This document shows, piece by piece, positions 4,749-24,301 of a stretch of 64,000 nt of DNA (position 1 is its first letter; each line of letters starts with the position of its first letter). The DNA lies in the NCBI RefSeq assembly GCF_012971745.1, contig NZ_CP048834.1, positions 3,968,001-4,032,000 of the forward strand, written 5' to 3'. The position numbers were made by a program, and so were the translations under genes. The notes beneath the pieces are model-generated. The model was given only the letters and a program-made list of their open reading frames with translations. It was not told where the DNA came from and made no database searches. The DNA is from Starkeya sp. ORNL1 (GTDB lineage Bacteria; Pseudomonadota; Alphaproteobacteria; Rhizobiales; Xanthobacteraceae).

Positions 4749-4959
4749 AACTATCGGGAGAGCATTGTCCGTCGAGCTTGGCGATCCGACCCCGATCCCA
4801 CGGCATTTACATTGCTTTTGCATCGAATCCCGCTGGTCGCGCTAGCGTTGTTTCAATCCCGCTCCGCGAGGATGAGCATTGGCGGTGGGGCCATACACGA
4901 CCGTGCGCAGACCAGGCGGGACAAACCGCCGGCGCCGCGGGCTGAAGTGGGGACAGGCA

Positions 4960-5838
4960 ATGACGGCGCTCGCTCAATACCGGATGGTGGCCGAGGCGGT
5001 TACCGCTTCGCCGGCTCGCGCCGTGCGCGAAGGTGAGGTGCGCGACGGTCTGCCTACCGAAGCGGACGCTCTCGCTCTTGAGGTGGAGGCCGCGCTCGCC
5101 GAAAACCGCATCCTGCCCTTCTACCAGCCGATGCTGGATCTCGCCTCCGGCGACATTGCCGGCTTCGAGGCGCTGGCGCGCTGGCAGCATGCCGAATTCG
5201 GCCTCGTCGAGCCGGCAGCTTTCGCCGGCGCCTTTACGCAGCCGCGCCTCGCGGTCGCCATCGGCCAGCGCATCGTGTCGCGGGTGTGCGATGACATGTG
5301 CAGTTTCGACCGCCTTGGCGCGCCGCTGCGCGAAGTGGCGCTCAATGTCTCCTATCAGGAGCTGCGCGACGGCGGCTTTGCGACGAGCCTGGCAGTGCGG
5401 CTCGGTGCCGTCGGGCTCGATCCGCGCCGCATCACCGTCGAGCTTGGACGCGGGATCGATTTCTCCGACCCGGACGACCAGCTGCCGGGCGAGATCCGCC
5501 GGCTCGCCGGGCTCGGCGTCAAGATCGCGCTCGACGATTTCGGCACCGGCTTCGCCTCGCTCACCCAGCTGCGGCGACTCAATGCCGACCGCATCAAGAT
5601 CGATCCGAGCTTTATCGCGCGGGTCGAGGATGATCCGGAGGACGCCGCCCTCGTCGCCGGCCTGATCGGCCTCGCCCATCGGCTCGGCATGAAGACGGTG
5701 GCGGAAGGTGTCGAGCGGCCGGCGCAGCTCGCCTTCCTGCGCGAGGAAGGCTGCGATTTCGCGCAAGGCTATCTGCTCGGCCGGCCGATGCCGGCGCCCG
5801 CGGTGCCGCACTTCGCCGCCGGGGTGATGGCGGCCTGA
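4960..5838 (+). CDS. EAL domain protein, probable cyclic-di-GMP phosphodiesterase
   Basis: 292 residues from the ATG at 4960, which follows GGACAGG; a TTG 81 bp upstream would add an unstructured arginine-rich leader. The EAL domain fills residues 42-285. EAL is at 70-72, and the metal and catalytic set looks intact: Asn129, Glu161, Asp192-Asp193 in LDDFGTGFASL, Lys213 in RIKIDPSFI, Glu249 in VAEGVE, and the QGYLLGRP end. It should therefore hydrolyse c-di-GMP to pGpG. There is no GGDEF, sensor or membrane segment. It lies directly before the first T3SS-associated unit, with an operator-like palindrome 12 bp after its stop, so a role in switching between motile, sessile and secreting states is possible but not shown. 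Confidence 0.88.
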   Translation: MTALAQYRMVAEAVTASPARAVREGEVRDGLPTEADALALEVEAALAENRILPFYQPMLDLASGDIAGFEALARWQHAEFGLVEPAAFAGAFTQPRLAVAIGQRIVSRVCDDMCSFDRLGAPLREVALNVSYQELRDGGFATSLAVRLGAVGLDPRRITVELGRGIDFSDPDDQLPGEIRRLAGLGVKIALDDFGTGFASLTQLRRLNADRIKIDPSFIARVEDDPEDAALVAGLIGLAHRLGMKTVAEGVERPAQLAFLREEGCDFAQGYLLGRPMPAPAVPHFAAGVMAA

Positions 5839-5849
5839 ACCTCGCCGGC

Positions 5850-5865
5850 TGTGCCGTACGTGACC
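5850..5865. promoter_or_regulatory. TGTG-N8-CACA-like operator S1, before the 5920 gene
   Basis: TGTGCCGTACGTGACC, centred 62 bp before the ATG at 5920. It shares TGTGCCGTNCGTGAC with site S2 at 24796 and the left arm with S3 at 25944; its right arm is degenerate. Proposed binding site of the Crp-like regulator encoded at 38281. Confidence 0.5.
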
Positions 5866-5919
5866 GGATTGCCGGACTGCCCGCGCTAATATTGCACGGT
5901 TCGCAGGAGGCGGACGGCG

Positions 5920-6735
5920 ATGCGGGCGGCGACACGGACCTGGACAGCACCGACGCCGGAATGGAAGCCGGAGCTCACCATCCTCGCGGATGTCTCCGCC
6001 AATTTGTTCGCCGTGTGCCTGCTCCTGCTGCTCGCGCTGTTGGCCATCGGTGCGGAACCGCCCGAGGAAGGCCCTGCCCTCCCCGCGGCGCCGATCGAAG
6101 CGGAAACCGCATTCGACGTCGTCGAGCGCGCGCCGCTCGGCGCCGGCGCCATGGTGGAACATCTGCGCGCCCGAGGCATGCCGGACACTGAGGCGATCGA
6201 CCTGTTCGCCGACGGCATCATTATCAGTGCCGGGTCCGGCGACATGAATATCCGGCCGGACACGGTGCCCGGCGCGCTGGCTGCCGCGGTGCGCGGCGTC
6301 GACCCGCGCCGTCCGGTGCGGCTCTATGTGTTCGATCCGCGCTGGTACGGCACCGTGATCGCGGCATTGCGCGAGCGTCGGCTCGTCATCACCGAATTGT
6401 CGATACCGGCGGCATTGCGGAGCCCTGACGGCGCCGGCTGGTCATCGGCCTTCCGCACGCTCGCCGCGCGCGGACTGGAGCCGGAATCGTTCCGTGCCGG
6501 CCTGGCGCAGCTTCTCGCTGGTGGCATCGGGGCGGAGGTCCGCAGTCAGAGTGGAGCGGGCGGCGGCGCGACTGCCTCTATCGCCGGCCGCTCCGGTCTC
6601 GCCGAGCGGCTCGCCGCCTGGCTCGGCGGCTTTATGGCCGTCGTCGTCCCGCTGTTCGGGCTGGCGGTGGTCCTCGCCATCGAGGCGCGCGAGCGGCGGC
6701 GCCTGATGATCCCGTTATCCGTTCCCTCTCTTTAG
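5920..6735 (+). CDS. Bitopic or bipartite membrane protein with ExbD/TolR-like N-terminus, T3SS-locus accessory
   Basis: 271 residues, not a family I can name with confidence. An N-terminal membrane segment (about 22-44) is preceded by TILADVSANLF, with Asp24 at the membrane entry, much like the ExbD/TolR/MotB pattern of an acidic residue at the start of a single helix. A mixed alpha/beta domain follows (about 60-215), then a Gly-rich stretch and a second membrane segment (about 233-254) ending in a basic tail. The start follows AGGAGG. It is co-oriented with a small gene 13 bp downstream and has operator-like site S1 upstream. With the ExbB/ExbD-like genes at 11304-12885 it may form a proton-channel complex linked to the T3SS; that is inference. 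Confidence 0.55.
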   Translation: MRAATRTWTAPTPEWKPELTILADVSANLFAVCLLLLLALLAIGAEPPEEGPALPAAPIEAETAFDVVERAPLGAGAMVEHLRARGMPDTEAIDLFADGIIISAGSGDMNIRPDTVPGALAAAVRGVDPRRPVRLYVFDPRWYGTVIAALRERRLVITELSIPAALRSPDGAGWSSAFRTLAARGLEPESFRAGLAQLLAGGIGAEVRSQSGAGGGATASIAGRSGLAERLAAWLGGFMAVVVPLFGLAVVLAIEARERRRLMIPLSVPSL

Positions 6736-6748
6736 TCCCGAGGACGCC

Positions 6749-7036
6749 ATGGCCGACACCATCCAGAAGACCAGTTCGACCCCGCTGCCGCAGCACCAGA
6801 CGGTGACCGGCCAGCAGGATCCGCTGCCGCTGAATTCCCGCGAGCAGACCGAGCGGACCGACGTCAAGCAATCGCAGAATAACGGCGAAAAGGATGCCAA
6901 GGCGTTCGCCGACTATCTCAACCAGCAGGGCATCACCACACTGGAGAAGACTCAGCAGTCCTCGGCGTATGATCCCGTCAACGATATCGGCGACAGCAGC
7001 GTCTACAAGGGCACCGGGCAGTCCGGGCCGGTGTGA
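6749..7036 (+). CDS. Small hydrophilic Gln/Ser/Thr-rich protein, candidate secreted T3SS accessory
   Basis: 95 residues, no signal peptide and no membrane segment. The N-terminal third is rich in Gln, Thr, Ser and Pro, as T3SS secretion signals often are. A short helical section follows (KDAKAFADYLNQQGITTLEK) and the tail is again disordered. The ATG follows GAGGAC. It is 13 bp behind the 5920 gene, so the two are almost certainly cotranscribed. I do not recognise a family. It could be a secreted protein, a needle-like or regulatory peptide, or a partner of the 5920 membrane protein. Confidence 0.6.
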   Translation: MADTIQKTSSTPLPQHQTVTGQQDPLPLNSREQTERTDVKQSQNNGEKDAKAFADYLNQQGITTLEKTQQSSAYDPVNDIGDSSVYKGTGQSGPV

Positions 7037-7057
7037 CGACGGGTTGTCCTGCTTCAA

Positions 7058-7157
7058 CATCCTTCGAGGCTCGCTGCGCGAGCACCTCACGATGAGGTTC
7101 CATCTTAGTACGACCTTATCCTGAGGTGCCCGGCAAGGCCGGGCCTCGAAGGATGCT
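7058..7157. repeat. Paired palindromic repeat, family A copy 1
   Basis: CATCCTTCGAGG and CCTCGAAGGATG bound two shorter hairpins (GCTCGCTGCGCGAGC and GCCCGGCAAGGCCGGGC). It belongs to the same family as the units at 35422, 50541 and 54896. It separates the convergent 6749 and sctC genes. Confidence 0.75.
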
Positions 7158-7180
7158 CAAGCAATGCGCCACCACTCCCC

Positions 7181-9667
7181 TCAGGGCTTCGTCACCTTCG
7201 GCGGTGTCGCCGGGGGATAATAGACCGGCGGCGGCGCGGCGACTGGCGCCGGGTAGACGGGCGGCGGGAACGCCGGTTGCACCACCACCGCCTTCGGGAT
7301 CGCCGGCTGGCGGCCATAGCCGGTCTGGGTGTCGATGCGCAGCTGGCGGGTGATCTCCTCGATCTGCGTGCTGTGGCGCACCACGCGCGGCGTGATCATC
7401 ACCAGCAATTCGACGCGTTGCATCTTGTTGAGCTGCGATTTGAACAGGTCGCCGATCAGCGGCCAGCTGCGTATGCCCGGCACGCCCTGCTCGCTGGTGT
7501 CGAGCCGATCCTGGATCATGCCGCCGAGCAGCACGGTGCGCCCCGACTGCACCAATATGTCGGACTGGATGTCGCGGGTGGCGATGATCGGCTGCTGGTT
7601 GCCTTCCTTCACCGATTGCGAGGGCGTGGTGACGGATTGCTTGACCTTCAGGTCCACGGAGTTGTTGGCGTTGATCTTCGGCGTCACCTCCAGGATGATG
7701 CCGGTATCCTTGATCTCGACGCTCTCCGTGATGGTGGTGCCGCCGGTGGTGCTCGAGGTCTGCTCGCTGGTCTTGTAGGGGATCTGGTCGCCGACGACCA
7801 GGCGGGCCGACTTGCCGTCGACCACGGTGAGATAGGGCGAGGAGATGACCTTGACCTTGGTGACTTCCTGCAGCGCCGTCAGCACGACGTCGACATTGAC
7901 GTCGCCGATACTGCCGCCAATGACCACGGTGGCGCCTGAGCGGCCGGGATCGCCGGGCTCGGGGTCGACCGAGGAACGGGCGACGAAGCCGGCGCCCTCC
8001 AGATACCATTGCACGCCGCGCTGCAGCTCGTCATTGAGCAGCACCTCGACCACGGTGGCCTCGATCACCACCTGGGCCTGCGGGACGTCGAGCGTGCGCA
8101 CCACGTCCTGGATGCGCTTGAACAAGGTGTAGGTGGAATAGACCATCAGCGAGTTGCTGCGCGGATCGGCGACGATGCGCGTGGTGTCGCCATCGCTCCC
8201 GCCTGCCCCACCACCGCCGCCGCCGCCCGCCACGACCGGGCCGCCGCCAACACCACCGCCGCCGAAGCCGCCACCATTGAAGCCACCCTGTGGCAGCATC
8301 ATGCCCGGCACGTTCAGCCCTCCGCCGTCCTCGTCGATGTCGGGGGCGAGCGGGCGGTTATTATTGTTGAAATTGCCGAAGCCATTGTTCAAGGGCGGCG
8401 GCGGGCTGCCGTCGCTGCCGCCTTGCGCGGTCTGGCGGTCACGGATCACCAGTCCGCGGTCGGTCTGCTTCACCACGGTCTGCGACACCGAGACGGCGCC
8501 GAAGATGTTGCTGAGCTGAACCGCGATCTCCTCGGCCTTCAGGTGCTGCAAGGCGATGATGCGCAGCGAGGGGGTGTCCGCCACCGAATAATCCATCTCG
8601 GCGACCAGCTTGCGCAGCCCGTTCAGCAAGCCGGGATCCCGGGTGCTGACGAGCAGCGCGCGTTGCGTCATCAGCGGAATGACGGTGACAGCTCCGGCCG
8701 GCATCTGCGCCGAATAGACCGCCATCACCTGCGTCGCGATCTGCATCGGCTCGCTCTGGCGCAGCGGGACGATGGCGACGCGGTCCTCGGTGATGCCGCG
8801 CGAGGTGAGCGTGTTCATCAGGTCCTGGACCTGCGCGGCGTCGGACGCCGGTGCGCGGATGACGATGGCGTCCTGGGCCGCGGTCGGCAGGATGGTGACG
8901 CCGGGCGGCGAGATCTGGGTGAGCAGGGTCGCCATGGTGTTGGCGCCGCCGCGCGGCAGCTTGACGACGCGGGTCACCACCTCGCCGGCGCGCCCGCTCC
9001 GGGAATTGGTCTCGATGGCCGCCATCGCATCCGCGCTGCCGACCTGGTAGACGCCGCTGAAATAACGGACCACCAGCCCGTTGCGGCCGAGCAGGTCGCG
9101 CAGCACCGCGAGCACCTGGGCGCGCGGGATCGGCTTCTCGGTGTGGAAGGTGATGGTGCCCGGCATCGGGTCCGGCGCGACATAGGTGACGCCCAGCACG
9201 CCGCCCAGCATCTGTTTCAGCACGTCGGGTATGGTGGCGTTGTCGAAATTGATCGAGACCACGCCTTCGGCATCGAAGTTCGGATTGCCGGCAGCGGCGA
9301 TCTCGGCGACGTCGTTGGCGGTCTGCGCAGCATCGGGCTTAATCTCGATGCGCAGCGTGCCGACATAGCCGGTGATCTCGGCCAGCGGCGCGCTCTCGGC
9401 ATTGACGCGGGTGGTATTGATCACCGGACCCTTGCGCTCGGCCTCGCCGGTCCACAAACGCGGCTCGTCGTCCGCCTTCCAGTTACCGCACTCCGTCCAT
9501 TGCGTCGGGACGCCGCGATCGTTGCACGCATTGGTAAGCGCGCCACATCCGCCGAGCGCGAATGCTGCGAAGGCACCGAGCAACGCTGCGCGCACGCACG
9601 CGGCGAGGCGCCGGGCGCTGCCTTCCGCATTGGCATGCCCGTTTGACGACGTACTTACTGAACCCAT
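7181..9667 (-). CDS. sctC: Type III secretion outer-membrane secretin SctC, lipoprotein with GspD-like architecture
   Basis: 828 residues. A hydrophobic signal ends in ALGGC with lipidation Cys41 and no Asp at +2, predicting outer-membrane sorting. Then come an N0 domain (about 118-195, NFDNATIPDVLKQMLGG), an N1 repeat (VVKLPRGGANTMATLLTQI), an N2 repeat (IVPLRQSEPMQIATQVM), and an N3 repeat interrupted by a Gly/Asn-rich loop of about 90 residues. The secretin core follows from VEATVV-type strands through VPGIRSWPLIGDLF, with a Pro-rich tail. The Gly-rich loop in N3 and the multi-N layout are typical of GspD rather than of YscC. No T2SS genes are in the window and no other SctC candidate exists, so it most likely serves this T3SS. 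Confidence 0.8.
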   Translation of the reverse strand: MGSVSTSSNGHANAEGSARRLAACVRAALLGAFAAFALGGCGALTNACNDRGVPTQWTECGNWKADDEPRLWTGEAERKGPVINTTRVNAESAPLAEITGYVGTLRIEIKPDAAQTANDVAEIAAAGNPNFDAEGVVSINFDNATIPDVLKQMLGGVLGVTYVAPDPMPGTITFHTEKPIPRAQVLAVLRDLLGRNGLVVRYFSGVYQVGSADAMAAIETNSRSGRAGEVVTRVVKLPRGGANTMATLLTQISPPGVTILPTAAQDAIVIRAPASDAAQVQDLMNTLTSRGITEDRVAIVPLRQSEPMQIATQVMAVYSAQMPAGAVTVIPLMTQRALLVSTRDPGLLNGLRKLVAEMDYSVADTPSLRIIALQHLKAEEIAVQLSNIFGAVSVSQTVVKQTDRGLVIRDRQTAQGGSDGSPPPPLNNGFGNFNNNNRPLAPDIDEDGGGLNVPGMMLPQGGFNGGGFGGGGVGGGPVVAGGGGGGGAGGSDGDTTRIVADPRSNSLMVYSTYTLFKRIQDVVRTLDVPQAQVVIEATVVEVLLNDELQRGVQWYLEGAGFVARSSVDPEPGDPGRSGATVVIGGSIGDVNVDVVLTALQEVTKVKVISSPYLTVVDGKSARLVVGDQIPYKTSEQTSSTTGGTTITESVEIKDTGIILEVTPKINANNSVDLKVKQSVTTPSQSVKEGNQQPIIATRDIQSDILVQSGRTVLLGGMIQDRLDTSEQGVPGIRSWPLIGDLFKSQLNKMQRVELLVMITPRVVRHSTQIEEITRQLRIDTQTGYGRQPAIPKAVVVQPAFPPPVYPAPVAAPPPVYYPPATPPKVTKP

Positions 9668-10062
9668 CGGTCGTGCCGAATCGCCCCTGGTCTACCGTCA
9701 TCCGCGCGACGGAGCGTTTCCTCGCCCGCATCGCTTCGGCCCCGCCGTTCTTTTGCGGAACACTGGAGCGGCGACGTGATTAACGGAAGACGAAAGCGGG
9801 AGCATCAGCAACGGTTTGTGCGACGTGTGGCGTCGTTACAACGTTTAGCCTTCGATCTCGATTGGAAATCAGCCATAGTGACTTGAAATACGGTCGCAAT
9901 TATTATTTTTGACTAATCTAGAAAAAATTGGAAATTATTATACATGATTATCTTCTAGATTGCGGATGGTTAGCCGGTATGATGGGAAGTCCCCGGCGGT
10001 CACTTCGGGGGAAGTGCGCCGAGAGGCACGGCTGGGCACCAGCCACCTGCGGGGGCGGGACG
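9668..10062. other. AT-rich divergent intergenic region between sctC and the HTH gene
   Basis: A strikingly AT-rich stretch (about 9840-9960) in GC-rich surroundings, lying between divergent genes, so it probably holds promoters for both. It contains an 8-bp inverted repeat, AATCTAGA (9915-9922) and TCTAGATT (9954-9961), a candidate operator. A TTG at 9928 opens the downstream frame early, but the translated leader looks non-coding. Confidence 0.5.
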
Positions 10063-11193
10063 ATGGATCGGCTTGTAGATGGCCAGCGGCGCGCCGCCGT
10101 CATGCGCGGACGCTTGGGCACAAATTATCCTGCGCACCGGCCGCCGGTGCGCAGCCTCGCGGGGAAACTGCATCTCACGCGGATCGCGCTCGGCTGCTCC
10201 ACCAACAAGGAGCTGGTCTCGCGATTCGCGGCGGTCAACCGCGCCACCGCCTTCACCTCGCAGAACGCCTATAAATGGCTGAGCGGCAAGGCCATGCCGC
10301 GCATGTCGAGCGTCTATGAGGACTGGTCTCAGATCCTCGGCGGCAAGCTCGCCGCGCCCTTCATCGCCGCCTGTTCGTTCGAGGAATTCACCCGCGCCTT
10401 GCGCCAGCACTTCGACATACCCGAGGCCGCCATCAGCGAGTTGCGCGGCGAGCCTGCCCCGTCCCTCGAAGAGGTGCCGGACGGCGGCTGGAGGGAGGAT
10501 GCCGGCACATTGGACGAGGCGCGCCGCGCCGACGCCGGGGGCGGAGAATTGCCGCGGGTCGAACCGGCGCGTGGCGACCTGTGGCGCGGCGAAGCGCGCC
10601 GGCGCAACGCACTGATGGCGGGCAATTTCCTCGGCGTCTCGCCGGCCTGGTCGCGGGCACAGGCGGGCCGGCTCCTGATCGGCGCCGCCCGCATAGGCTA
10701 TCGCCGCGATGACGAGCTGTGGATCGACTATATCGAGCGGGTGGTGGGCCATGCTGTCCACTATGCCGGCAGCATGGTGACCGACAATCGGACTGTGCAG
10801 TCGGCTATGGAATGCATGCCGACCGGGCGGGTCTATCTGCTGGCGCTGCAATTCCCCACCTTTCCCGCCAATCTCATCGGCGGCCTGCTGTGCGGAACCG
10901 TGCTTCATGATCCCGATGCGCGCTCGGTCGCCTCGCGCATCCTGTTCGTTCGCAGCCATGCACTCGACTGGGACGGGCTTCTGGCCCGCATCGGCTATGC
11001 CACCCATGACGATGCGACGCTGGCGCGCGAACTCGAGGCGCTCGGCTATATTGGCGGCGAGCGTGCCGGCGAGGTGGCCGGCCAGATCGTGCGCTTCCTG
11101 GCACCGCCGGGCGAATCATCCGGCACCATCGAGGCCGGCCCGGCCGAACTCAACAGCGTCGGCTACGCGCTCGACAGCCTGACGCCGCTCTAG
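10063..11193 (+). CDS. Putative DNA-binding regulator of the T3SS locus (N-terminal HTH, unknown C-terminal domain)
   Basis: 376 residues from the ATG after GGGGGCGGGA. Residues about 28-95 look like an XRE-type helix-turn-helix: a long helix with LAGKLHLTRIALGCSTNKEL, then FTSQNAYKWLSGKAMPR, where the KWLSGKxxPR stretch recalls recognition-helix ends of phage-type and IS-type regulators. The middle (150-215) is Glu/Ala/Arg-rich and probably a linker. The C-terminal part (about 220-370) is a folded domain that I cannot assign. It is divergent from sctC across an AT-rich region and inside the T3SS locus, so regulation of the locus is likely. Alternatively it is an unrelated regulator. Confidence 0.6.
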   Translation: MDRLVDGQRRAAVMRGRLGTNYPAHRPPVRSLAGKLHLTRIALGCSTNKELVSRFAAVNRATAFTSQNAYKWLSGKAMPRMSSVYEDWSQILGGKLAAPFIAACSFEEFTRALRQHFDIPEAAISELRGEPAPSLEEVPDGGWREDAGTLDEARRADAGGGELPRVEPARGDLWRGEARRRNALMAGNFLGVSPAWSRAQAGRLLIGAARIGYRRDDELWIDYIERVVGHAVHYAGSMVTDNRTVQSAMECMPTGRVYLLALQFPTFPANLIGGLLCGTVLHDPDARSVASRILFVRSHALDWDGLLARIGYATHDDATLARELEALGYIGGERAGEVAGQIVRFLAPPGESSGTIEAGPAELNSVGYALDSLTPL

Positions 11194-11307
11194 AGCATTT
11201 CCCGATCAGATGGAATCATCTGATCGAAGAGGAATTGCTCCAGTCTATTGAATCGAGAGCACTTTCTTATCGTTCGGATGCTCCCATCCGAACGATAAGG
11301 GCTCTAG
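11190..11307. repeat. Compound palindromic repeat, family B copy 1
   Basis: Starts and ends with the complementary AGAGCATTT-type and GGGCTCTAG ends. Inside are GATCAGATGGAATCATCTGATC and CGTTCGGATGCTCCCATCCGAACG hairpins. The same unit occurs in inverted orientation at 43718-43834, and one half at 18676. It supplies the stop codon of both convergent genes that meet here. Confidence 0.8.
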
Positions 11308-11789
11308 GGACAGAGCTCGGCGAGCGGCCCGTGCACGCCGGCGCAGCCACGATCCAGACGCACTTGGGCAATGGAGCGTGGACCGTGCGCGGCGGCCAGA
11401 CCTTCGAACAGGAAAGCGGTCTCCTGCCCGTCCGGCGCGATCAGCAGCAATAGTGGCGTGCCGGCCGCACGGATGGATTCCAGCGCCGCCCTCAGATTGG
11501 CATCGTCGAGCATGGCGTCGAGCCCGACGCGGTCGCGCCCAGCGGGACCGAAGGCGACGCCGTCCTGTTGTGCGAGGAAGACAGCCGCGCTTTCGCCGCG
11601 CACCGTTGCGCCGGCTGTCAGTACTACGTCCGCAACTGCCGCCATCTGCCGCTCCGGCTGCTGTGCCGTGCGGGCGGCGGGGAGCAGCAGCAATATGGCC
11701 GGCAGCATCACCGCCACGAGGGTGAAGAACAGGTCCGCCTGCGGATCCGCCAGCCCGGCGAGGCCGCCCTCTCGCAGCTCAGTGCGCAT
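11304..11789 (-). CDS. ExbD/TolR-like membrane protein in the sctV operon
   Basis: 161 residues. One membrane helix (about 19-39) begins with Asp19 in PQADLFFTLVAVML, the position where ExbD, TolR and MotB carry the proton-carrying Asp. A periplasmic alpha/beta domain follows (about 45-155; LLLLIAPDGQETAFLFEGL), with two Cys near the C-terminus. The start ATG lies 11 bp inside the end of the ExbB/MotA-like gene, so the two are translationally coupled. Both follow sctV closely. In known systems such pairs convert the proton gradient into movement across the periplasm. I am confident of the topology and the pairing; the family call itself is moderate. Confidence 0.6.
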   Translation of the reverse strand: MRTELREGGLAGLADPQADLFFTLVAVMLPAILLLLPAARTAQQPERQMAAVADVVLTAGATVRGESAAVFLAQQDGVAFGPAGRDRVGLDAMLDDANLRAALESIRAAGTPLLLLIAPDGQETAFLFEGLAAAHGPRSIAQVRLDRGCAGVHGPLAELCP

Positions 11790-12885
11790 CGGCGCTGCCG
11801 CGGGTTGCCTCGACTAGCCTCAGGCATTCGGCATCGAGTTCGGCCTCGTTCTTCTCCAGCGCCGCCAGGAGCGCCGCCGAGAGGATGGCGGCGACCAGGC
11901 CGAGCAGCGTGGTCTGGAATTTCAGAGCGAGGCCGGCGAGGCTCGCGGCGACGTCCAGCCCGCCGCCGCGATTGACCCCAGTGCCGATCGGCAGCGCGCC
12001 GATGGCGGTGGCAAGCCCCACCACGGTGCCGAGGAAGCCGAGCAGCGGCAGGAAGGACAGCAGCGCGCGGAAGAAGCGGCGCGAGGCATCGTGGAAGCCG
12101 GCGAGCGCGGCAGGCGCCGTCTCACCGTCGAGCGCGGCCTCGATGGTGAGGAAGCTGCGCCGGTGCGCCGCGCGCGGGCGCAGCCGCTCGAGCACCGCGG
12201 TCAGGCCCGGGTGTGACGGCTTGCCTTGCCCGGAGAGCCCGAGCCGCACTGCGGCGAGCACGGCCCGTTCGCGCGCCTGCAACAGCGCGGCGTCGGTGAG
12301 GAAGGCCAGCGCGGTGAAGAACAGCAGCACGATGGCGTAATGGATCACGGTTTCGCCTTCGAGCGCGGCGCGCACCATCTCCAGCGTCGCGCCATGAGCG
12401 GTGACGAAGGGCAGCGCCGCGTAGAAGGCAAGGGTGAAGGCGCCGCCGAGTGCGAGCGCGGCGAGCAGCGATTGCGCCTGGGGCGCGCCGCCGGCTGCTG
12501 CGGGATTGCGCCAGAAGCGGGCGAAGCGCCACTCATTGGTCTCGGCGAGCAGCCGGCTCGCGAACAGGCAGACCACGATCTGTGGCCACACCATGCTTTG
12601 CTTTATTGCGCCGGCTAATGGCTCGCCTTGGGCCAGAAGGGTGCCTACCGGCAGATAGAGCGCGATGGCCGCCAGCAGCACGGCTCCGAGGCGCAGCGCG
12701 GCGTCGTGCAGCGTGGTGGCGGGACCGGCGAGGCCGAGCCCGGTGAGCGCCACACCGAGGGCCGCGAGCATCCAGAGGGTACCGCCTGCGTCTCTTGCCT
12801 CCAGCGCCAGGAACAGCGCAAACGACGCCAACAGGCATGCGCCATAGGCCCGGAGCATCCCGCTGGGTCCGGCGTCCGTGTCCAC
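11779..12885 (-). CDS. MotA/TolQ/ExbB-like proton channel protein in the sctV operon
   Basis: 368 residues from GTG (ATG nine codons later is possible), three bases after the sctV stop. Hydrophobic segments lie at about 11-30, 35-57, 65-86, 95-113, 140-165, 180-203, 273-298 and 312-345. The last two carry the ExbB/MotA pattern: GFLGTVVGLATAI with Thr287, and LALKFQTTLLGLVAAI with Thr325-Thr326, the positions that line the channel in ExbB. A cytoplasmic loop (205-265) separates them from the rest. The additional N-terminal helices exceed those of ExbB (three) and MotA (four). Flagella use MotA stators, but non-flagellar T3SSs are not known to need one, so this placement is remarkable. Confidence 0.7.
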   Translation of the reverse strand: MDTDAGPSGMLRAYGACLLASFALFLALEARDAGGTLWMLAALGVALTGLGLAGPATTLHDAALRLGAVLLAAIALYLPVGTLLAQGEPLAGAIKQSMVWPQIVVCLFASRLLAETNEWRFARFWRNPAAAGGAPQAQSLLAALALGGAFTLAFYAALPFVTAHGATLEMVRAALEGETVIHYAIVLLFFTALAFLTDAALLQARERAVLAAVRLGLSGQGKPSHPGLTAVLERLRPRAAHRRSFLTIEAALDGETAPAALAGFHDASRRFFRALLSFLPLLGFLGTVVGLATAIGALPIGTGVNRGGGLDVAASLAGLALKFQTTLLGLVAAILSAALLAALEKNEAELDAECLRLVEATRGSADAH

Positions 12886-12888
12886 GGC

Positions 12889-15015
12889 CTACGCCGCCTT
12901 GATCTGCGGCGTGATCTTGATGCGATCGAGCGGCTGCACGTTCGCGCTGGCGGTGAGCTCCTGGTAGGAGAGCACGGCGAACTCCGGGAAGTCGCGCTCG
13001 ATGATCTTGCGCATGAAGCGGCGAATATCCATCGGCGCCAGGATCACCGGGGTCAGCACCTGCTGCGTCGAATTGCCGGCGGCGGCGCGGATGGCATTGA
13101 TCAGCTCGCGGTGCACATCCGGCGAGAGTGCGAGATAGGAGGCGCCCGAGGTCTGGCGCACCGCGCCGCGCACCACGTCCTCGATCTCCTTCGAGACGAG
13201 GTAGGCAGGAATCACGTTCTGCCCGCCGGAGAATTTATGGGTGATGTAGCGGCTGAGCGCGCCGCGTACATGCTCCACCAGCATGATCGGGTCTTTCTCG
13301 CGCTGGCCCCAGGTCACCAGCGCCTCGAGGATGGTGCGCATGTCGCGGATCGAGACCTCCTCGGCGACGAGGCGCTGCAGCACGTCGGTGATGGTGACGA
13401 TGGGCAACAAGCGGGTCACCTCGCGCACCAGCTCGCCGAAATTCTTCTGCATCTGGTTCATCAGGAACATGGTTTCCTGGACGCCGACGAACTCGGAGGC
13501 ATGCGACTTCAGCACATGGGCGAGGTGGTAGGTCAGCATGCTGGAGAGTGTCATGACCTGGATGCCGGCGCGCTCGATCAGCGGCAAATGCTTCACCGCT
13601 ACCCAGTAGCTCGGGGTGCGCGGCAGGAAGTCCTCGCCGCGCTCGAACGGGATGTCGAACATGCGCAGATTGGCTTCCGATTCGCGCACGATGCAGAAGC
13701 CCGGCCGCGCGACGCCGGCGGCGACCGGGATCTCGTTGACGAGGATGCGGTACTCGCCCTCGCGTAGGTTCTCGTTGAGCCGCAGATTGATGCCGGGAAA
13801 CGGCACGCCGAGGTCGAAATACAGCGCGCGACGCACCCGCGCGACTTCACGGTCGAGCTTCTCCGGGCGGATCGAGTTGCGCACGCTGGCGGCGATGTCG
13901 ACGATCAGCGGCACGGTGAGGGCGAAGGTCACCGGCTCGACCGGGCCGAGCTTCTCGTCGTCGTCATCGGGGAAGGTGGGCACCATGCCCTTGGGCGAGA
14001 GCGCCGGGGCGAGTGCCGGCATTTCGAGCGAGCGCTGGCCGGTGACGACATTGCTGCGCTTGCGCATGATCAGGTAGCCGCCGCCGCCGCAGACGACGGC
14101 GAGCACCAGGAAGGTGAGGGTCGGGAAGCCCGGCACCATGGCGAAGATGCCGAGGATCGCCGCGGTGATCATCAGCGCCTTCGGCTCATTGACCAGCTGC
14201 TTGGCGATATCGCTGCCGAGGTCCTCATTGTCGTCGGAGGAGACGCGGGTGACGATGAAGCCGGCGGTGATGGAGACAAACAGCGCCGGAATCTGCGAGA
14301 CCAGGCCGTCGCCGATGGTGAGCAGCGAATAGCGGTGGATTGCTTCGCTCACCGGCATGCCGAGCTGCAAGGTGCCGATGGAGATGCCGCCGATCAGATT
14401 GATGGCGATGATGATGAGGCCGGCGACGGCATCGCCCTTCACGAACTTCATGGCGCCGTCCATGGCGCCGTAGAGCTGGCTTTCCTTCTCCAGCTTGTTG
14501 CGCCGGCGCTTGGCCTCGTCGAGCTCGATCATGCCGGCGCGCATGTCGCTGTCGATCGACATCTGCTTGCCGGGCATGGAATCCAGCGAGAAGCGCGCCG
14601 ACACTTCGGCGACGCGTTCCGAGCCCTTGGTAATGACCATGAAATTCACGATGGTCAGGATCAGGAACACCACCAGGCCGACCACGAGATTGCCGGCGAT
14701 GACGAACTTGCCGAAGGTCTCGACGATGTGGCCGGCGTCGGCCTGGATCAGGATCAGGCGGGTGGTGGTGATGGCGAGCGCGAGGCGGAACAGCGTCGTC
14801 AGCAGCAGGATCGAGGGGAAGGCCGAGAGCTGGACCACGTCCTTCAGATAGACCGCGGCCATCAAAAGGATGGCGGCCAGCGACAGATTGATGGCGATCA
14901 GGACGTCCACCAATGCCGTCGGCAATGGCAGGATCATCATGAAGACGATGCAGATCAGCAGGAAGGCGAGCAGCAGATCATTGCGCTTGGAAAGCGTCTG
15001 CAGAAAACCCGTCAT
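12889..15015 (-). CDS. sctV: Type III secretion export gate protein SctV
   Basis: 708 residues from the ATG at 15015; a GTG at 15057 would add 14 basic residues. The N-terminal half has the FHIPEP-type membrane domain (about eight helices, residues 15-320) with SAFPSILLLTTLFRLALAI and the conserved cytoplasmic loop MPGKQMSIDSDMRAGMI. The C-terminal half is the cytoplasmic domain that forms the nonameric ring and binds chaperone-substrate complexes. SctV is the major export gate of the injectisome. It stands in an operon with the coiled-coil gene upstream and the ExbB/ExbD-like genes downstream, whereas sctX and sctY, its usual partners in Ysc systems, are in another operon about 7 kb away. 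Confidence 0.97.
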   Translation of the reverse strand: MTGFLQTLSKRNDLLLAFLLICIVFMMILPLPTALVDVLIAINLSLAAILLMAAVYLKDVVQLSAFPSILLLTTLFRLALAITTTRLILIQADAGHIVETFGKFVIAGNLVVGLVVFLILTIVNFMVITKGSERVAEVSARFSLDSMPGKQMSIDSDMRAGMIELDEAKRRRNKLEKESQLYGAMDGAMKFVKGDAVAGLIIIAINLIGGISIGTLQLGMPVSEAIHRYSLLTIGDGLVSQIPALFVSITAGFIVTRVSSDDNEDLGSDIAKQLVNEPKALMITAAILGIFAMVPGFPTLTFLVLAVVCGGGGYLIMRKRSNVVTGQRSLEMPALAPALSPKGMVPTFPDDDDEKLGPVEPVTFALTVPLIVDIAASVRNSIRPEKLDREVARVRRALYFDLGVPFPGINLRLNENLREGEYRILVNEIPVAAGVARPGFCIVRESEANLRMFDIPFERGEDFLPRTPSYWVAVKHLPLIERAGIQVMTLSSMLTYHLAHVLKSHASEFVGVQETMFLMNQMQKNFGELVREVTRLLPIVTITDVLQRLVAEEVSIRDMRTILEALVTWGQREKDPIMLVEHVRGALSRYITHKFSGGQNVIPAYLVSKEIEDVVRGAVRQTSGASYLALSPDVHRELINAIRAAAGNSTQQVLTPVILAPMDIRRFMRKIIERDFPEFAVLSYQELTASANVQPLDRIKITPQIKAA

Positions 15016-15057
15016 ACCGCCATCACCTCGTCCCCGGTCCTTGTTCCGCCGCTTCAC

Positions 15058-18675: not shown

Positions 18676-18724
18676 AGAGCACTTTCCCGCCGTTCGGCTT
18701 TCATCCGAACGGCAAGGGCTCTAG
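18676..18724. repeat. Half unit of palindromic repeat family B
   Basis: AGAGCACTTTCCCGCCGTTCGG and its inverted partner CCGAACGGCAAGGGCTCT form one hairpin equal to one half of the B units at 11190 and 43718. Its end includes the stop codon of the CesT-like gene. It may act as a transcription attenuator between two sets of chaperone genes. Confidence 0.65.
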
Positions 18725-19213: not shown

Positions 19214-20212
19214 TCAGACCTTGGTCAGTGCCTGCATGTGGTTGGCCTTGGCTTCCTGAAGCTCCTTCAGGAAGTTGATGATCTGCTTGACCATGTCGTC
19301 GAGCGCCTGCTGCATTTCCTTCTTCATGTCGGCCTGGCCTTCCTCATACTGCGCGTTCGCCGCCGAGATCGAGCCGAGGGCGTCCAGTTCCTTGGACTGC
19401 GCCTGGGTGATGGAGGATGCGGCGTTGGCAGCGCCCTGGCCGAGCTGGTTCACGGTCTGGCCGATGGTGCCGATATTGGTCGCCTGCTGCAGCTTCGACT
19501 GGAACAGGTTCATGTTGGACTGCGAGGTGGTGAAGGAGCTGTTCAGACCCTGGAGGTCGAACTCCTTGTTGAGGCTGTCCAGATCCTTGTCGTAGTGCGC
19601 ATCGTTCTTGTCGAGCTTGCCGAGCGCGTCCTGCTTGATGCCGTCGATCTTGGTCATGTTGTTGGCGTCGTTCTTCATGGCCGCCAGATTCTTGGAGGCC
19701 TGGAACGACGACATGCCGGCGGCGACGAGCGAGACCGCCGACATGACGACGGTGAGCACCAATGCGGTGATGGCGCCGGCCATCATCTTCTCGGCGGCTT
19801 CCTTCATCTGGCCGGCCTGCGCCATCAACTCGCCACGTGCGGTCTCGCGGGCATTGAGGCGGCCTTCCAGCGCTTCCTTACGCTGCTCGCCGGCCTGCTC
19901 GATCATGGCGCGGGTGAGGAATTCGATGCTGCTGCTCGACTGGAGCAACTGGGCGACCTTGCCGGCGAGCGACTCCAGGCCGTCGAGCGTGGTCTCGATA
20001 TCGGCCGGCGGGTCACCATTGATCGGGGCCAGCTTGGTGCTGAGCTGCATCAGCGCCAGGAACGCTTCCTTCTGCGCCGGGGGCATATCGGCGATGCGGG
20101 CCTGGATGCCCGCCGCCACGGTCTGCGCCTCGGTGTCGGAAACCGTGAGCTGGCCGTTCTGGTAGAAGGACGGCGGCAGCAGGGTCTGGAGAGTGGCTGA
20201 GTCGATGGGCAT
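19214..20212 (-). CDS. sctB: Type III translocon minor pore protein SctB (YopD/IpaC-like)
   Basis: 332 residues, no signal peptide. The N-terminal 130 residues are hydrophilic and helical. A single hydrophobic region (about 142-170, AGAITALVLTVVMSAVSLVA) is followed by long polar Asn/Gln/Lys/Asp-rich helices to the end, the YopD/IpaC/EspB arrangement. It follows the two-segment translocator gene by 20 bp and a SycD-like chaperone precedes both, the standard order of translocator operons. With SctE it should form the pore in the host membrane. The subunit naming relies on the number of hydrophobic regions. Confidence 0.75.
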   Translation of the reverse strand: MPIDSATLQTLLPPSFYQNGQLTVSDTEAQTVAAGIQARIADMPPAQKEAFLALMQLSTKLAPINGDPPADIETTLDGLESLAGKVAQLLQSSSSIEFLTRAMIEQAGEQRKEALEGRLNARETARGELMAQAGQMKEAAEKMMAGAITALVLTVVMSAVSLVAAGMSSFQASKNLAAMKNDANNMTKIDGIKQDALGKLDKNDAHYDKDLDSLNKEFDLQGLNSSFTTSQSNMNLFQSKLQQATNIGTIGQTVNQLGQGAANAASSITQAQSKELDALGSISAANAQYEEGQADMKKEMQQALDDMVKQIINFLKELQEAKANHMQALTKV

Positions 20213-20232
20213 CTGATCTGTCTCCTGCTGTC

Positions 20233-21252
20233 TCAGGCCGAGAAGCGGGCGCGCGAGACACTGTTGCCGGTGTCCTGGATGGCGTCGGTCAGCGCATCAA
20301 GCATGGCATTGAAGCGGTCGGTCGCGGCCATCAGCCGTTGCAGCGCCTGGTCGATGAAGTCGTCGAGCTGCGAGAGCAGCGCCTCGAACTGCTTGCCCTC
20401 GGCCTGCAATTCCTTGGCTTCGGACTCCTTCTTCGTCGCCTCGTAGCGGATGGCCCCGCTGGCGATATCGCCGACCGCGGTGGCGCCGGTGATGACGCCG
20501 TTGGCGATGGTGGACACCGCCTGCGCCATCGTCGCGATCGCGGACGCCTGTCCGCCCGGCACGAAGAAGGTCGCGACCGCCGCCGCGAGGCCGACAATCG
20601 CCAGGCTTATGCCGAACCCCATATCGGCCTTCGCCCAGGCCTCCGGATTGTCGGGCTGCGCCAGCTTGGCGAAATTGCCGGCGATGCCGAGGCCGGTGGA
20701 CATCTTGACCGCGGCGTCCACCATCATGATGACGCTGAGCACGCCGGCGGCGATCATCAGCCCGCCGACCGCCTGGAAGCCGGGAATGACCGAGAGGACG
20801 GCGCCGATGACGATCATCAGCAGCGCCGCCAGCGCCTGGAAGGCGAGCTTGATCTTGTCCCAGATGCTGCCGCTCTCGCGCATGCGGCGGGACTCCTCGA
20901 TCTTCTTGGAGGCCTCTTCGAGCTTCGAGGTCTTCTCGCCGATGGCGGTGCGCTTCTTCTCCTGGTCGATCGAGATCTTGTCCTTTTCCGAGCTCTCGAC
21001 GATCTGCTTCATCAGCGTGGTCGCCTCGACCAGCTTCACCGAGGAATCATCGTTCGAGATCTTCGGCATGAGGCTCATCATGCTCTTCATCAGCGCGCCA
21101 TAGGCCGCGACCTGGAACAGGCCGGGATCCGGCACCTGGCCGCCGGCGCCGTTGTTACCCTTGCCGACCTGGTTCGGATCGTTGGCGGTGTTGTTGAGGG
21201 CGTTGGGATCGGTGATCTGCGTGGTGGTCGCGGTGCTGAGGGTGATCGCCAT
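20233..21252 (-). CDS. sctE: Type III translocon major pore protein SctE (YopB/IpaB/EspD-like)
   Basis: 339 residues, no signal peptide. A Thr/Asn-rich N-terminus is followed by a Lys/Glu coiled coil (about 82-125). Next come two hydrophobic regions, about 135-180 (LAALLMIVIGAVLSVIPGF) and 213-268 (GFGISLAIVGLAAAVATFF), then an amphipathic C-terminal coiled coil. That is the hallmark layout of YopB, IpaB and SipB. It is the second gene of the operon headed by the SycD-like chaperone at 21313. Its presence indicates that the apparatus targets a eukaryotic membrane, unlike the plant-type rhizobial T3SS. Confidence 0.82.
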   Translation of the reverse strand: MAITLSTATTTQITDPNALNNTANDPNQVGKGNNGAGGQVPDPGLFQVAAYGALMKSMMSLMPKISNDDSSVKLVEATTLMKQIVESSEKDKISIDQEKKRTAIGEKTSKLEEASKKIEESRRMRESGSIWDKIKLAFQALAALLMIVIGAVLSVIPGFQAVGGLMIAAGVLSVIMMVDAAVKMSTGLGIAGNFAKLAQPDNPEAWAKADMGFGISLAIVGLAAAVATFFVPGGQASAIATMAQAVSTIANGVITGATAVGDIASGAIRYEATKKESEAKELQAEGKQFEALLSQLDDFIDQALQRLMAATDRFNAMLDALTDAIQDTGNSVSRARFSA

Positions 21253-21312
21253 GAGTCCGGCCTCCTGAAAGCTGAAATCGGCGTTGCAACGGGAGAAGCG
21301 CTGGGCGGGCGC

Positions 21313-21873
21313 TCAGGCGCCGCGGCGCGCCTTGATGATGTCCAGCATCTTCGCGGCGTGCTGGGCGTGCTCGGGGTCGCCGGAGTTCTTCTGCACGAGC
21401 TCGATCGCGGTCTCGAAGCACTCGACCGCCTCGTCGTCTTCCTGCGCGGCGAGGAAGCACTCGCCGAGCCGCAGGAAGCCTTCCGGATTGGTGGCATCGA
21501 GCGCAATGAACTGCACATAGAGCTTGCCGGCCCGGGAGAAATCGCTCTCCACCTGGTAGGTCGCGGCCAACGCATAGATCACCCGCTCGTCGAGCGGCTC
21601 GATCTGGTAGAGCCCGGTGAGCAACTCGCGGGCCTTGGCGGGCTCGCCGAGCTGCAAAGTACGGATACCCTGCGCCAGTATGGCGTCACGGTGGTCCTTG
21701 GTGATGTCGAAGATGTCGGCGAGCGACAGGCCCTCCTGCATCAAGGCGAGCACCTGGCGCTGCTTGTCGTTGAGGTCGGCCTTGGCGAGGAAATCCTGCA
21801 TGGCGGCACCGGCCATGGTGAACGAGGCCTGCAATTCGGCTTCGCTCGATATCATTCCGTCAAGGATCGACAT
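21313..21873 (-). CDS. SycD/LcrH-family class II chaperone of the translocators
   Basis: 186 residues from the ATG after GGAAGGAAAG. It shows three TPR-like repeats: QGIRTLQLGEPAKARELLTG, then YALAATYQVESDFSRAGKLY, then GFLRLGECFLAAQEDDEAVE. The layout and length match SycD, LcrH and IpgC. It is the first gene of the operon with sctE and sctB, so it is the best candidate for the shared translocator chaperone. Operator-like site S5 lies 66 bp before the ATG. An upstream in-frame ATG would add 40 residues of non-conserved Arg-rich sequence and was not chosen. Confidence 0.82.
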   Translation of the reverse strand: MSILDGMISSEAELQASFTMAGAAMQDFLAKADLNDKQRQVLALMQEGLSLADIFDITKDHRDAILAQGIRTLQLGEPAKARELLTGLYQIEPLDERVIYALAATYQVESDFSRAGKLYVQFIALDATNPEGFLRLGECFLAAQEDDEAVECFETAIELVQKNSGDPEHAQHAAKMLDIIKARRGA

Positions 21874-21931
21874 GGACTTTCCTTCCCCCGTCATCGACCA
21901 GAAAAGACTACCGGGCCGGGGAAGCACTTCT

Positions 21932-21947
21932 TGTGTCGAAGATGACA
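21932..21947. promoter_or_regulatory. TGTG-N8-CACA-like operator S5, before the translocator operon
   Basis: TGTGTCGAAGATGACA, centred 66 bp before the start of the SycD-like gene. The left arm equals that of S6; the right arm ends in GACA. Confidence 0.5.
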
Positions 21948-21996
21948 TGCGGCGCGATCTTTGCGGGATGCCGACGCGCGGCTCCCCGCGCATCGC

Positions 21997-22410
21997 TCAC
22001 TCGTCGGCGCCGGCCTTCTCGGCACCGTGGCGCAGATAGACCTCCATGGCGTCGCGGGCCCGGCCGGTCTCCTTGAGCTCGTGCAGGCAGCGCATCTTGA
22101 GATAGCGGCGCATGCGCTGGCGCTCATTCAGCCGGTAGCTGCCGAAGCGCTCCGCCGGATCGACACGGTCGAGCTCCTCGATGCAGGCAAGCGCCGCCGC
22201 CCATTCACGCACCGAGAAGCGCAGCACGGCACGCGCCAGCAGCACGTCGGGCGTGCCGTCGCCAACGAGGTGCAGTGCCTCGGCAAGCACCGCGGCGCGG
22301 TCGACATAGCCGTGCCGGGCGAGCACATAGATATTGAGCAGCAGGAAGTCGCGCTCGCGCCGCCCCAGCACGCTCTTTGCCGGCAAAGCGGGAACCGGAA
22401 GGCGGCTCAT
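21997..22410 (-). CDS. sctY: SctY (YscY-like) TPR protein, partner of SctX
   Basis: 137 residues, starting at an ATG that overlaps the sctX stop (ATGA). The N-terminal stretch LGRRERDFLLLNIYVLARHGY, followed by a helix with RAAVLAEALHL, matches what I recall of YscY (an FLLLN motif early in a small TPR protein), and the final repeat (RCLHELKETGRARDAMEVYL) fits as well. YscY is a cytoplasmic chaperone of YscX; the pair contacts SctV and is needed for export of early substrates in the Ysc family. The tight sctX-sctY arrangement is the same as in Yersinia. A generic TPR chaperone is the alternative. Confidence 0.75.
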   Translation of the reverse strand: MSRLPVPALPAKSVLGRRERDFLLLNIYVLARHGYVDRAAVLAEALHLVGDGTPDVLLARAVLRFSVREWAAALACIEELDRVDPAERFGSYRLNERQRMRRYLKMRCLHELKETGRARDAMEVYLRHGAEKAGADE

Positions 22411-22787
22411 GCGCGCAGCAGCGCGGCGAGTGCCGAGCGGATTTCGTCGTCGAGGCCGATATCGGCACCCAGCAGCGTGGCGGCCTGTTCGAGTATGTCC
22501 CGGCTGCGGCCGCTCGCGCTGAGCGATCGCTCGACAAACGCACTGCGGGCGCCGACACGGGCGTCCGCGAGCGCGGTGGGATCCAGAAGGTCGGGGTCGA
22601 CCGTCGCCGGGCGCAGGAACTCCGGCAGTCGCTCGTCGAGCGAGGGCCGCTGCAGGATCTCCTCGAGCGGCCGGTATTGCGGCATGAAGGCCGGCGCGCT
22701 GGTGCCGTCGCGCGGCAGGTGCACCTCGTCCGCGACGTCCCAGCGGGTGATCGATTCCAGCCCGATATCGAGGTTCCGGATGCGCAT
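22407..22787 (-). CDS. sctX: SctX (YscX-like) export component
   Basis: 126 residues, the length of YscX. The N-terminus (DIGLESITRWDV), a Pro-rich central section (LPRDGTSAPAFMPQYRPLEE) and a C-terminal helical hairpin (RDILEQAATLLGADIGLDDEI) line up with the general YscX layout. The gene is fused by ATGA overlap to the YscY-like gene, and no other family fits that pairing. YscX is secreted, binds YscY and, with it, SctV, and is specific to Ysc-type systems. The sequence call is from remembered pattern rather than an alignment. Confidence 0.68.
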   Translation of the reverse strand: MRIRNLDIGLESITRWDVADEVHLPRDGTSAPAFMPQYRPLEEILQRPSLDERLPEFLRPATVDPDLLDPTALADARVGARSAFVERSLSASGRSRDILEQAATLLGADIGLDDEIRSALAALLRA

Positions 22788-22819
22788 CGCTGTTCGGCTC
22801 CGCTGGCCTGCCGCTGTCG

Positions 22820-24301
22820 TCAGCTGGACCGGGCGATGTTCTGCAGGATTTCCGACATCTTCGACAGCGCATTATTGGCGAGGTCGAAATGCCGGTTCTT
22901 CTGCTTGTCCAGCGAATTGACGTTGTTCATCTTGATCTGGCTTTCCTGGTTGATCAGCGTGACACGGTCGGAAAGCTGCGAGCCGAACGTATCCCAGGTC
23001 GATTTGGTCCATTTGTTGATGTAGTTGGTGTTGTTCTCGAACATGTCCTGCTTGGCGCGGGTGATGCCCTTCAGCTTTTCGATCGGATGCTGGACGCTGC
23101 CCAGCGCATCCTCGAACATCGACAGGATCTTGTGCTGCGAGAGCGCGGTGGTCGCGCGCGTGGCGTCGTCGTCGTCCTTGTCCTTGCCGTCATTGTAATT
23201 GTAGACCGAGCGCGCTTCTTCCTGCTTGGTCGGATTGAAGGCTTTCACGGTCTCGTTGACCGCGCTCTGCATTTCGGCATAGGTCTTGAGCAGGGCGTTG
23301 GTCTGGTTGATCTCTTCCGTCTGGATCGCCATCTTGGCTTCGTCATTCAGATTGTAGTTGAGCTGCAGCATATAGACGAGCGTCGGCACGTCGATGCTGC
23401 TCGGCAGCGGATCACCGGTCGGATCCTTCAGCCCCGCGATCTCCAGCCGCTTGTTCTGCAGCGCCAGTATCTGCTTTTCCTGGGTCATGAACAGCGTATA
23501 GCCGTTGCGGATGGCCTGGCCGCCATCGAGGCTCACCACGCCGTCGGTGTAGGTGACGGTCTTGTCGTCCTTGGTGAACGACTTGGTCGTTTCCGCCCAC
23601 GAGCCGGCGAACGCATCGACGCGGGTGAAGCGCTCCTTGAGGTCGTTCACCAGATTGCCGACGTCGATCGGCGAGAAGATCGCCATTGCGTCGAGCTGCT
23701 TCTGGATATTCGCGATCTGGTCGAGGAACACCTGCTTGTCCGTCGCGGGGACATTGGTGTTGTTGGTGATCGCGGTCTTCTGTGCGGTGAGGGCGGCCTG
23801 CACCACCGTCTTGTCGGTGGTCAGGCCGAGATTGATCGCCTGGCCGGTCTCGACGCCGGTGGTGGCGTTCTTGGAATAGAACGTCGAAAATGTCGCCAGA
23901 CGCTGCTGATCGGCCAGCGACATCTTGGAGATGGTCGCCTTGTCCAGCTTCTGCACGACATAGGTCTTCAAGCCGTCGGTCGACAGCATGATGGTGGCGG
24001 TGTCGGGGGGTATGCCGATCTCCTTGCCGGCATTGGCCGAAGGGGCGCCGAACTTCTTGATGTATTCGAGCTGGTAGCTCGAATGCCAGCTCAGGAAATC
24101 ATCGATCTTGACCTGGTTCGGCGGCTTGTCGAAATCGTCCGGGCGGCTTGCGGTCGGCAGCGACTTGGCCGCGCTCGACCCATCAAACACCGGGAACCGC
24201 GCGTCCGCGCCCTCGGCGATCTCAGGCGATTCGGTGCCGACATCGCTGCCCGGCAGGTAATGATAGGGAATCGGTCCACTCGGGATCGGGTCGAGGGCCA
24301 T
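22820..24301 (-). CDS. Candidate needle-tip or hydrophilic translocator protein (SctA-like)
   Basis: 493 residues, no signal peptide, Asn/Thr/Lys/Asp-rich, unlike the Ala-rich surroundings. The N-terminal 70 residues are Pro/Ser-rich. The middle alternates polar helices. The C-terminal 60 residues form a long helix ending NNALSKMSEILQNIARSS, which recalls the C-terminal helix of LcrV, IpaD and BipD needle-tip proteins. It stands just upstream of sctX, in a cluster with both translocators, where a tip gene would be expected, and no other gene in the locus fits that role. An effector identity remains possible; it is longer than known tips (about 330 residues). Confidence 0.5.
   Translation of the reverse strand: MALDPIPSGPIPYHYLPGSDVGTESPEIAEGADARFPVFDGSSAAKSLPTASRPDDFDKPPNQVKIDDFLSWHSSYQLEYIKKFGAPSANAGKEIGIPPDTATIMLSTDGLKTYVVQKLDKATISKMSLADQQRLATFSTFYSKNATTGVETGQAINLGLTTDKTVVQAALTAQKTAITNNTNVPATDKQVFLDQIANIQKQLDAMAIFSPIDVGNLVNDLKERFTRVDAFAGSWAETTKSFTKDDKTVTYTDGVVSLDGGQAIRNGYTLFMTQEKQILALQNKRLEIAGLKDPTGDPLPSSIDVPTLVYMLQLNYNLNDEAKMAIQTEEINQTNALLKTYAEMQSAVNETVKAFNPTKQEEARSVYNYNDGKDKDDDDATRATTALSQHKILSMFEDALGSVQHPIEKLKGITRAKQDMFENNTNYINKWTKSTWDTFGSQLSDRVTLINQESQIKMNNVNSLDKQKNRHFDLANNALSKMSEILQNIARSS

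Follow-up and report, generated by a model that had tools for sequence, protein, structure and literature searches.

The 64,000-nucleotide stretch of Starkeya sp. ORNL1 DNA analysed here (contig NZ_CP048834.1, positions 3,968,001 to 4,032,000; hereafter the window, meaning this whole stretch) contains the locus of a non-flagellar type III secretion system (T3SS), or injectisome, in which SctV, SctJ, SctR, SctS, SctT, SctU and SctN score above the NCBIfam cut-offs. The subject of this work is a group of genes associated with the export gate gene sctV of this locus, which encode an ExbB-like protein and two small membrane proteins; the names exbDs and exbDlong of the latter are convenience labels. 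These genes, their small companion and the neighbouring secretin gene are as follows (aa, amino acids; pLDDT, predicted local distance difference test score of the structural model):

12889-15057, minus strand: sctV, export gate, 722 aa (NCBIfam TIGR01399 SctV, 912.1 bits against a cut-off of 692.25)
11779-12885, minus strand: exbB-like gene, 368 aa, GTG start, 3 bases after sctV; PF01618 above cut-off
11304-11789, minus strand: exbDs, ExbD/TolR-like, 161 aa, ATG start, 11-base overlap with exbB; pLDDT 79
5920-6735, plus strand: exbDlong, 271 aa, directly behind exbDs in 11 other loci; pLDDT 76
6749-7036, plus strand: sm95, companion, 95 aa; profile match (E up to 0.05) behind exbDlong in 9 of 11 other loci, five of the nine having served to build the profile
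7181-9667, minus strand: secretin gene sctC, GspD-type, 828 aa (NCBIfam TIGR02517 GspD, 361.9 bits, cut-off 351.35)
5920-9667, mixed strands: block exbDlong-sm95-sctC, in an orientation opposite to that seen in loci such as L079

The placing of the exbB-like gene and exbDs behind sctV, with the short gap, the overlap and the common minus strand, is that given in the original prediction, which had been made from the sequence alone. In the 368-aa protein, residues 265-346 scored 32.5 bits (E 8.4e-8) on the MotA/TolQ/ExbB family PF01618, for which the cut-off is 22.9, and the Thr-bearing helices singled out by the same prediction, GTVVG (T287) and TTLLGL (T325/T326), are indeed present. T287 and T325, which we take to be channel positions of the MotA/TolQ/ExbB core helices, are invariant in 12 of 12 loci, and T326 is replaced by Ser in 4 of the 12. 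A long extra hydrophobic N-terminus precedes the core, and the protein fails the ExbB equivalog TIGR02805 of NCBIfam (21.9 bits, cut-off 135.35). The profile search thus supports, at the sequence level, the anticipated membership of the larger protein in the MotA/TolQ/ExbB superfamily.

When the ExbB profile was compared with PDB sequences, its best match was MotA (6ysl, E 0.041), the others being two designed proteins (E 0.18 and 0.21); this match, the common ancestry of injectisomes and flagella, and the presence of MotA in the same Pfam family are what could speak for a relic of a flagellar stator. We regard such an origin as extremely improbable: SctV was the sole match in an FHIPEP search of the genome, which therefore has no flagellar export gate, the small subunit resembles TolR and ExbD, and no such gene was found within about 1.5 kb of the other SctV/FlhA-type genes examined. 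Very improbable, too, is the arrival of a ZorAB-type defence motor in the locus, a reading which would draw on weak ZorA matches over the common core (PADLOC E 0.0033, NCBIfam E 0.37). The NCBIfam ZorA score is 9.8 bits against a cut-off of 100, no ZorB-type match was found for the partners, six proteins tested gave no other defence match at E up to 1 (sm95 had no PADLOC match), and the place behind sctV is conserved. The host genome holds separate ExbB/ExbD pairs of its own, and a PF02472 search matched two other places only. A fourth PF01618 protein of the genome, a 360-aa frame at G000:C1:5153343-5153594, is barely above the cut-off and lies away from the two PF02472 genes.

The model of the ExbDs protein shows one long N-terminal helix (16-59) with Asp19 close to its start, as had been read from the letters, and this Asp is present in 12 of 12 loci. 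Comparison of the model by VIA-align returned TolR and ExbD structures in the first five rows, which supports an ExbD/TolR-like fold for the predicted structure. ExbDlong consists of an N-terminal helix with Asp24, likewise present in 12 of 12 loci, a periplasmic-type domain and a second hydrophobic helix at the C-terminus. Its model found TolR by Foldseek at rank 19 (E 0.032), amid other folds, VIA-align gave no clear fold assignment for it, and its profile reached a best E of only 2.3 against PDB sequences. The two small proteins were aligned with each other by hhalign with a probability of 44% (P 2.4e-4), the helices coinciding at the Asp.

In 11 other genomes sctV, exbB, exbDs and exbDlong are consecutive on one strand. 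Comparison of gene order and strands in the window with those of L006, L079 and L121 suggests that an inversion including the secretin gene probably parted exbDlong and sm95 from exbDs; the presumed break regions (5839-5920 and 11194-11304) have no common 9-mer, direct or inverted. The original prediction, which described the module as a pair, was correct in that both its genes are real, but overlooked exbDlong and sm95, which make it a trio plus a small protein. Directly upstream of exbDlong (4879-5838, plus strand) lies an EAL-type cyclic di-GMP phosphodiesterase-like gene, which reached no listed NCBIfam cut-off, and a 421-aa frame without any family match is situated between sctC and exbDs (9928-11193, plus strand). 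Some database relatives of exbDlong and exbDs are found on same-sized contigs (7668, 11601 and 157808 bases). On the 157808-base contig of a close relative (P0042, P0051, P0058) the exbB, exbDs and exbDlong records are short or frame-shifted, which looks like damage either to the genes or to the assembly; intact copies occur in other genomes. Alignment A1 comprised 45 of 48 sequences, P0042, P0043 and P0044 being left out, and P0058, with its shifted frame, was left out of A5.

The distribution of the module was surveyed with the ExbB profile in order, class, family, genus and phylum samples, which overlap. Seven of 397 genomes of the order sample matched at E 1e-10; the class sample gave 6 of 385, five of the six being weak, the phylum sample 5 of 289, three of the five weak, and matches were found in 4 of 15 genomes of family f28, in 6 of 199 of family f42 and in 1 of 195 of the genus of G071. 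Sixty relatives, 29 of them of the same genus, yielded no strong match and three weak ones, and the plasmid records contained no ExbB relative at E 1e-5. A complete ExbB was present in 12 distinct genomes, in all of which it lies directly behind sctV and is accompanied by exbDs and exbDlong (displaced in the window); in a thirteenth genome (G297) sctV is followed by an ExbB cut by the contig end. The stretches fetched around the five weak matches of the class sample contained no SctV, exbDs or exbDlong. With SctJ as an independent query against the 397 genomes, the six genomes with the strongest ExbB ranked first and the seventh (G364) thirteenth. One further scan revealed at least 28 loci, mostly of Planctomycetes, 26 of which are outside these counts.

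In the tree of SctV/FlhA-type proteins (41 rows), 18 sequences at least 68% identical to SctV of the window formed one clade with a support of 99/100. ExbB stands behind sctV in 13 of the 18 loci, and the survey of related sctV loci that had been proposed with the original prediction thus found the arrangement to recur, the whole trio being behind sctV in 11 other genomes. The remaining 23 rows, whose long branches make their placement unsure, showed no ExbB-like frame within about 1.5 kb on each side of the gene. Presence of the module, when mapped on the SctV tree, needs at least two changes, i.e., two gains, or one gain and more losses. The tree distances of SctV, ExbB, ExbDs and ExbDlong over 12 loci were correlated with r of 0.79 to 0.96, which 0 of 5000 permutations attained; such agreement points to joint descent and is not in itself a sign of contact. 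These comparisons support an association of the genes with a single kind of injectisome.

The same linkage bears on the possibility that the trio performs a general Tol- or Ton-like envelope function, for example upkeep of the wall or the outer membrane during building of the machine, and is merely co-transcribed with the secretion genes. ExbBD/TolQR systems commonly do work of this sort, and some loci lack the module in its entirety. Nevertheless, we hold this reading to be decidedly unlikely, considering that an ExbB of such kind was found as a strong match only beside SctV of one clade, with which it shares its tree, that the genome has its own ExbB/ExbD pairs, and that no TonB, TolA, Pal or receptor match was obtained among the profile-searched proteins, which were part of the window genes.

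We lean, with moderate confidence, to reading the trio as a proton-driven motor that is similar in kind to TolQR/ExbBD/AglRQS and dedicated to a Ysc-like injectisome. Its anatomy, linkage and descent are well supported, and its function is putative. ExbB would form a membrane ring, and ExbDs and ExbDlong an axle, as homo- or heterodimers, each Asp facing the Thr residues of the ring; proton flow past the Asp would turn or reshape the axle, and the TolR-like periplasmic domains might convey the work either to the machine itself or to the surrounding envelope, with the C-terminal hydrophobic helix of ExbDlong tying the periplasmic part back to the inner membrane. Proton conduction, the 5:2 assembly and the heterodimer are what we infer. 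The least certain element is the load: an envelope-side step, in which the base and the GspD-type secretin would be brought through the envelope or opened in it, appears likelier than the driving of SctV export, since the work-bearing extra domains would be periplasmic, the secretin is of the GspD type, and the module is lacking from five sister loci in which many of these secretion genes are present. More tentatively still, and somewhat short of an even chance in our estimation, the Hyphomicrobiales may possess a class of Ysc-like injectisome with its own stator, namely a rotary proton motor built of three subunits, whose axle would be a heterodimer with two acidic residues and whose membrane anchor would be the ExbDlong C-terminal helix; it would turn or strain the base or the borrowed GspD-type secretin.

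Several observations weigh against the motor as we describe it. ExbDs had no Pfam match at E up to 10 and likewise none in NCBIfam, and ExbDlong had no PF02472 match at E up to 1; hhalign of ExbDs and ExbDlong with 30 canonical ExbD/TolR proteins gave probabilities of 0.9% and 0.3%, respectively; and ExbD or TolR did not appear among the best 50 Foldseek matches of the ExbDs model (best E 0.077), for which reason VIA-align is the weight-bearing result for this protein. The expected ExbD/TolR likeness of the small partner thus stands for the fold, and the Pfam and hhalign profiles show no such relation. In G253 the ExbDlong gene (L082 6806-7132, plus strand) encodes about 108 residues, which retain the Asp and the two hydrophobic helices and have lost nearly all of the periplasmic part, a hint that in this protein the membrane parts are the most important. 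Relatives of the secretin occur in other loci of the SctV clade, including the motor-less G312, G363 and G388, which weakens the link between secretin and motor. Finally, ExbB is absent from 5 of the 18 clade loci (G312, G321, G400, G363 and G388), and hence the core can exist without the module.

In G312, sm95 lies 92 bases behind sctV, so that what the interval has lost or never had is precisely the motor trio. A tblastn search with 38 window genes (E 1e-4) gave matches to 29 of them in G312, 26 in G363, 23 in G388, 12 in G400 and 11 in G321, the stretches of all five loci being partial and those of G400 and G321 showing fewer secretion genes than the other three. As loci without the module carry many other secretion genes, the module is to be considered accessory. 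Downstream of sctV in L096 (G321) and L089 (G400), transposase-like frames were noticed by eye near the expected place of the motor genes; these frames may be scars of motor-gene loss.

These five loci also bear on the idea that the trio serves the export gate, channelling protons into SctV or exerting force on it in the inner membrane. SctV does without ExbB in them, none of the 23 other SctV/FlhA-type genes showed an ExbB within 1.5 kb, and the topology of ExbDs and ExbDlong would place their extra domains in the periplasm; although every one of the 13 exbB genes adjoins sctV, even where other genes moved, and the long extra hydrophobic N-terminus of ExbB could touch a partner, we judge a service to the gate to be rather unlikely.

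Of the known systems, the proposed dedicated motor resembles AglRQS, the gliding motor of Myxococcus xanthus, which consists of the products of one TolQ/MotA-like and two TolR-like genes with a membrane Asp each (PMC3169522, PMC9389320). The trio likewise combines a TolQ-like subunit with two that bear an Asp, all encoded in a single gene run that is adjacent in 11 loci and split in the window. Unlike AglQ and AglS, which match PF02472 (PMC3169522), exbDs and exbDlong have no such match; moreover, ExbDlong has a second, C-terminal hydrophobic helix, and Agl drives gliding rather than secretion. Whether AglQ and AglS form homo- or heterodimers is described as not established in the literature (PMC9389320). 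GldLM of the type IX secretion system (T9SS) is, according to PMC8986121, a proton-driven motor dedicated to a secretion machine, an assignment that is predicted for the trio as well; it differs in having two subunits and in belonging to Bacteroidetes and the T9SS, and PMC9389320 gives GldL/GldM as a two-subunit Bacteroidetes motor with no conclusive sequence homology to other motors. With ExbBD/TolQR the trio shares the ExbB core above the Pfam cut-off and the TolR/ExbD fold of the small subunit, but it has the long hydrophobic N-terminus of ExbB, two ExbD-like subunits and linkage to sctV, no TonB/TolA match among the searched proteins, and an ExbB that falls short of the NCBIfam equivalog score.

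No title or abstract describing an ExbB- or MotA-type motor in an injectisome was found by searches of open PubMed Central text aimed at the question. Injectisomes are powered by the SctN ATPase and by the proton gradient at the export gate and, as far as we know, are understood to work without a stator. If the trio is such a motor, it would supply energy independently of SctN and of the protons used by SctV, as a second input. To our knowledge, only GldLM of type IX secretion has so far been a ring-and-axle motor assigned to a secretion system, and the trio would be the second; it would also be another motor with two different Asp subunits beside AglRQS. Because the module is present in some members of one clade and absent in others, nature offers an almost identical machine both with and without it, and mechanical energy input to an injectisome could therefore be tested by simple gene removals.

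The remaining genes of the locus are as follows:

25943-35377, plus strand: sctI-J-K-L-N-O-P-Q-R-S-T-U, of which sctJ, R, S, T and U are above the NCBIfam cut-offs
28760-30160, plus strand: sctN, above the NCBIfam cut-off
within 25943-35377, plus strand: sctI and sctQ, NCBIfam matches under cut-off
within 25943-35377, plus strand: sctK, L, O and P, names assigned from position and from relatives at the equivalent place in other loci
35584-37857, minus strand: sctD, Pfam YscD domain PF16693 above cut-off; NCBIfam SctD 58.6 bits, under the cut-off of 86
39253-39642, plus strand: sctF, needle, NCBIfam under cut-off (34.8/41.7 bits)
39790-41010, plus strand: sctW, gatekeeper, NCBIfam under cut-off (68.4/89.5 bits)
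19214-20212, minus strand: sctB, in the translocator block 19214-24301, NCBIfam SctB above cut-off
20233-21252, minus strand: sctE, in the translocator block, Pfam SseC above cut-off
21313-21993, minus strand: SycD-like chaperone, in the translocator block, NCBIfam LcrH/SycD under cut-off
22820-24301, minus strand: large protein, in the translocator block, without a family match below E 0.01

Among the solved structures of the PDB, SctV comes nearest to a chain with the name low calcium response protein (834 bits), a name which we take as Ysc-type. The Starkeya locus agrees with Ysc-family injectisomes in SctV, which is above the equivalog cut-off, and in the presence of translocators and a needle, and it differs from them by the motor module and the GspD-type secretin, which on the T3SS-type SctC model of NCBIfam scores 102.3 bits, far under the cut-off of 238.45.

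The window contains several repeats. The element CATCCGAACGATAAGGGCTC at 11285-11304 has further copies, with 2 mismatches, at 18702-18721 and at 43721-43740, where chance would give 0.01, and for CATCCGAACG..AAGGGCTC the window has 3 copies when up to 3 mismatches are allowed (0.01 expected). The shared element forms an inverted repeat at 11266-11299, of which the 11285-11304 copy is one arm. The original prediction had placed the pair behind an operator shared with the rest of the locus; the shared element does exist, but its 11285-11304 copy lies behind exbDs, and the search for an operator in front of the pair did not confirm one. Two of the copies are at the 3' ends of minus-strand secretion genes, and the third (43721-43740) is outside the secretion genes and the locus. 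Among 15 intergenic stretches compared, the other shared pairs were weak or GC-rich, except for one long repeat between convergent genes; this repeat of about 100 bases (7037-7180 and 35378-35583) has internal palindromes and the look of a repetitive extragenic palindromic (REP) element. A perfect 22-base palindrome occurs at 11204-11225 and 43799-43820 (0.03 expected), its second copy being outside the secretion genes.
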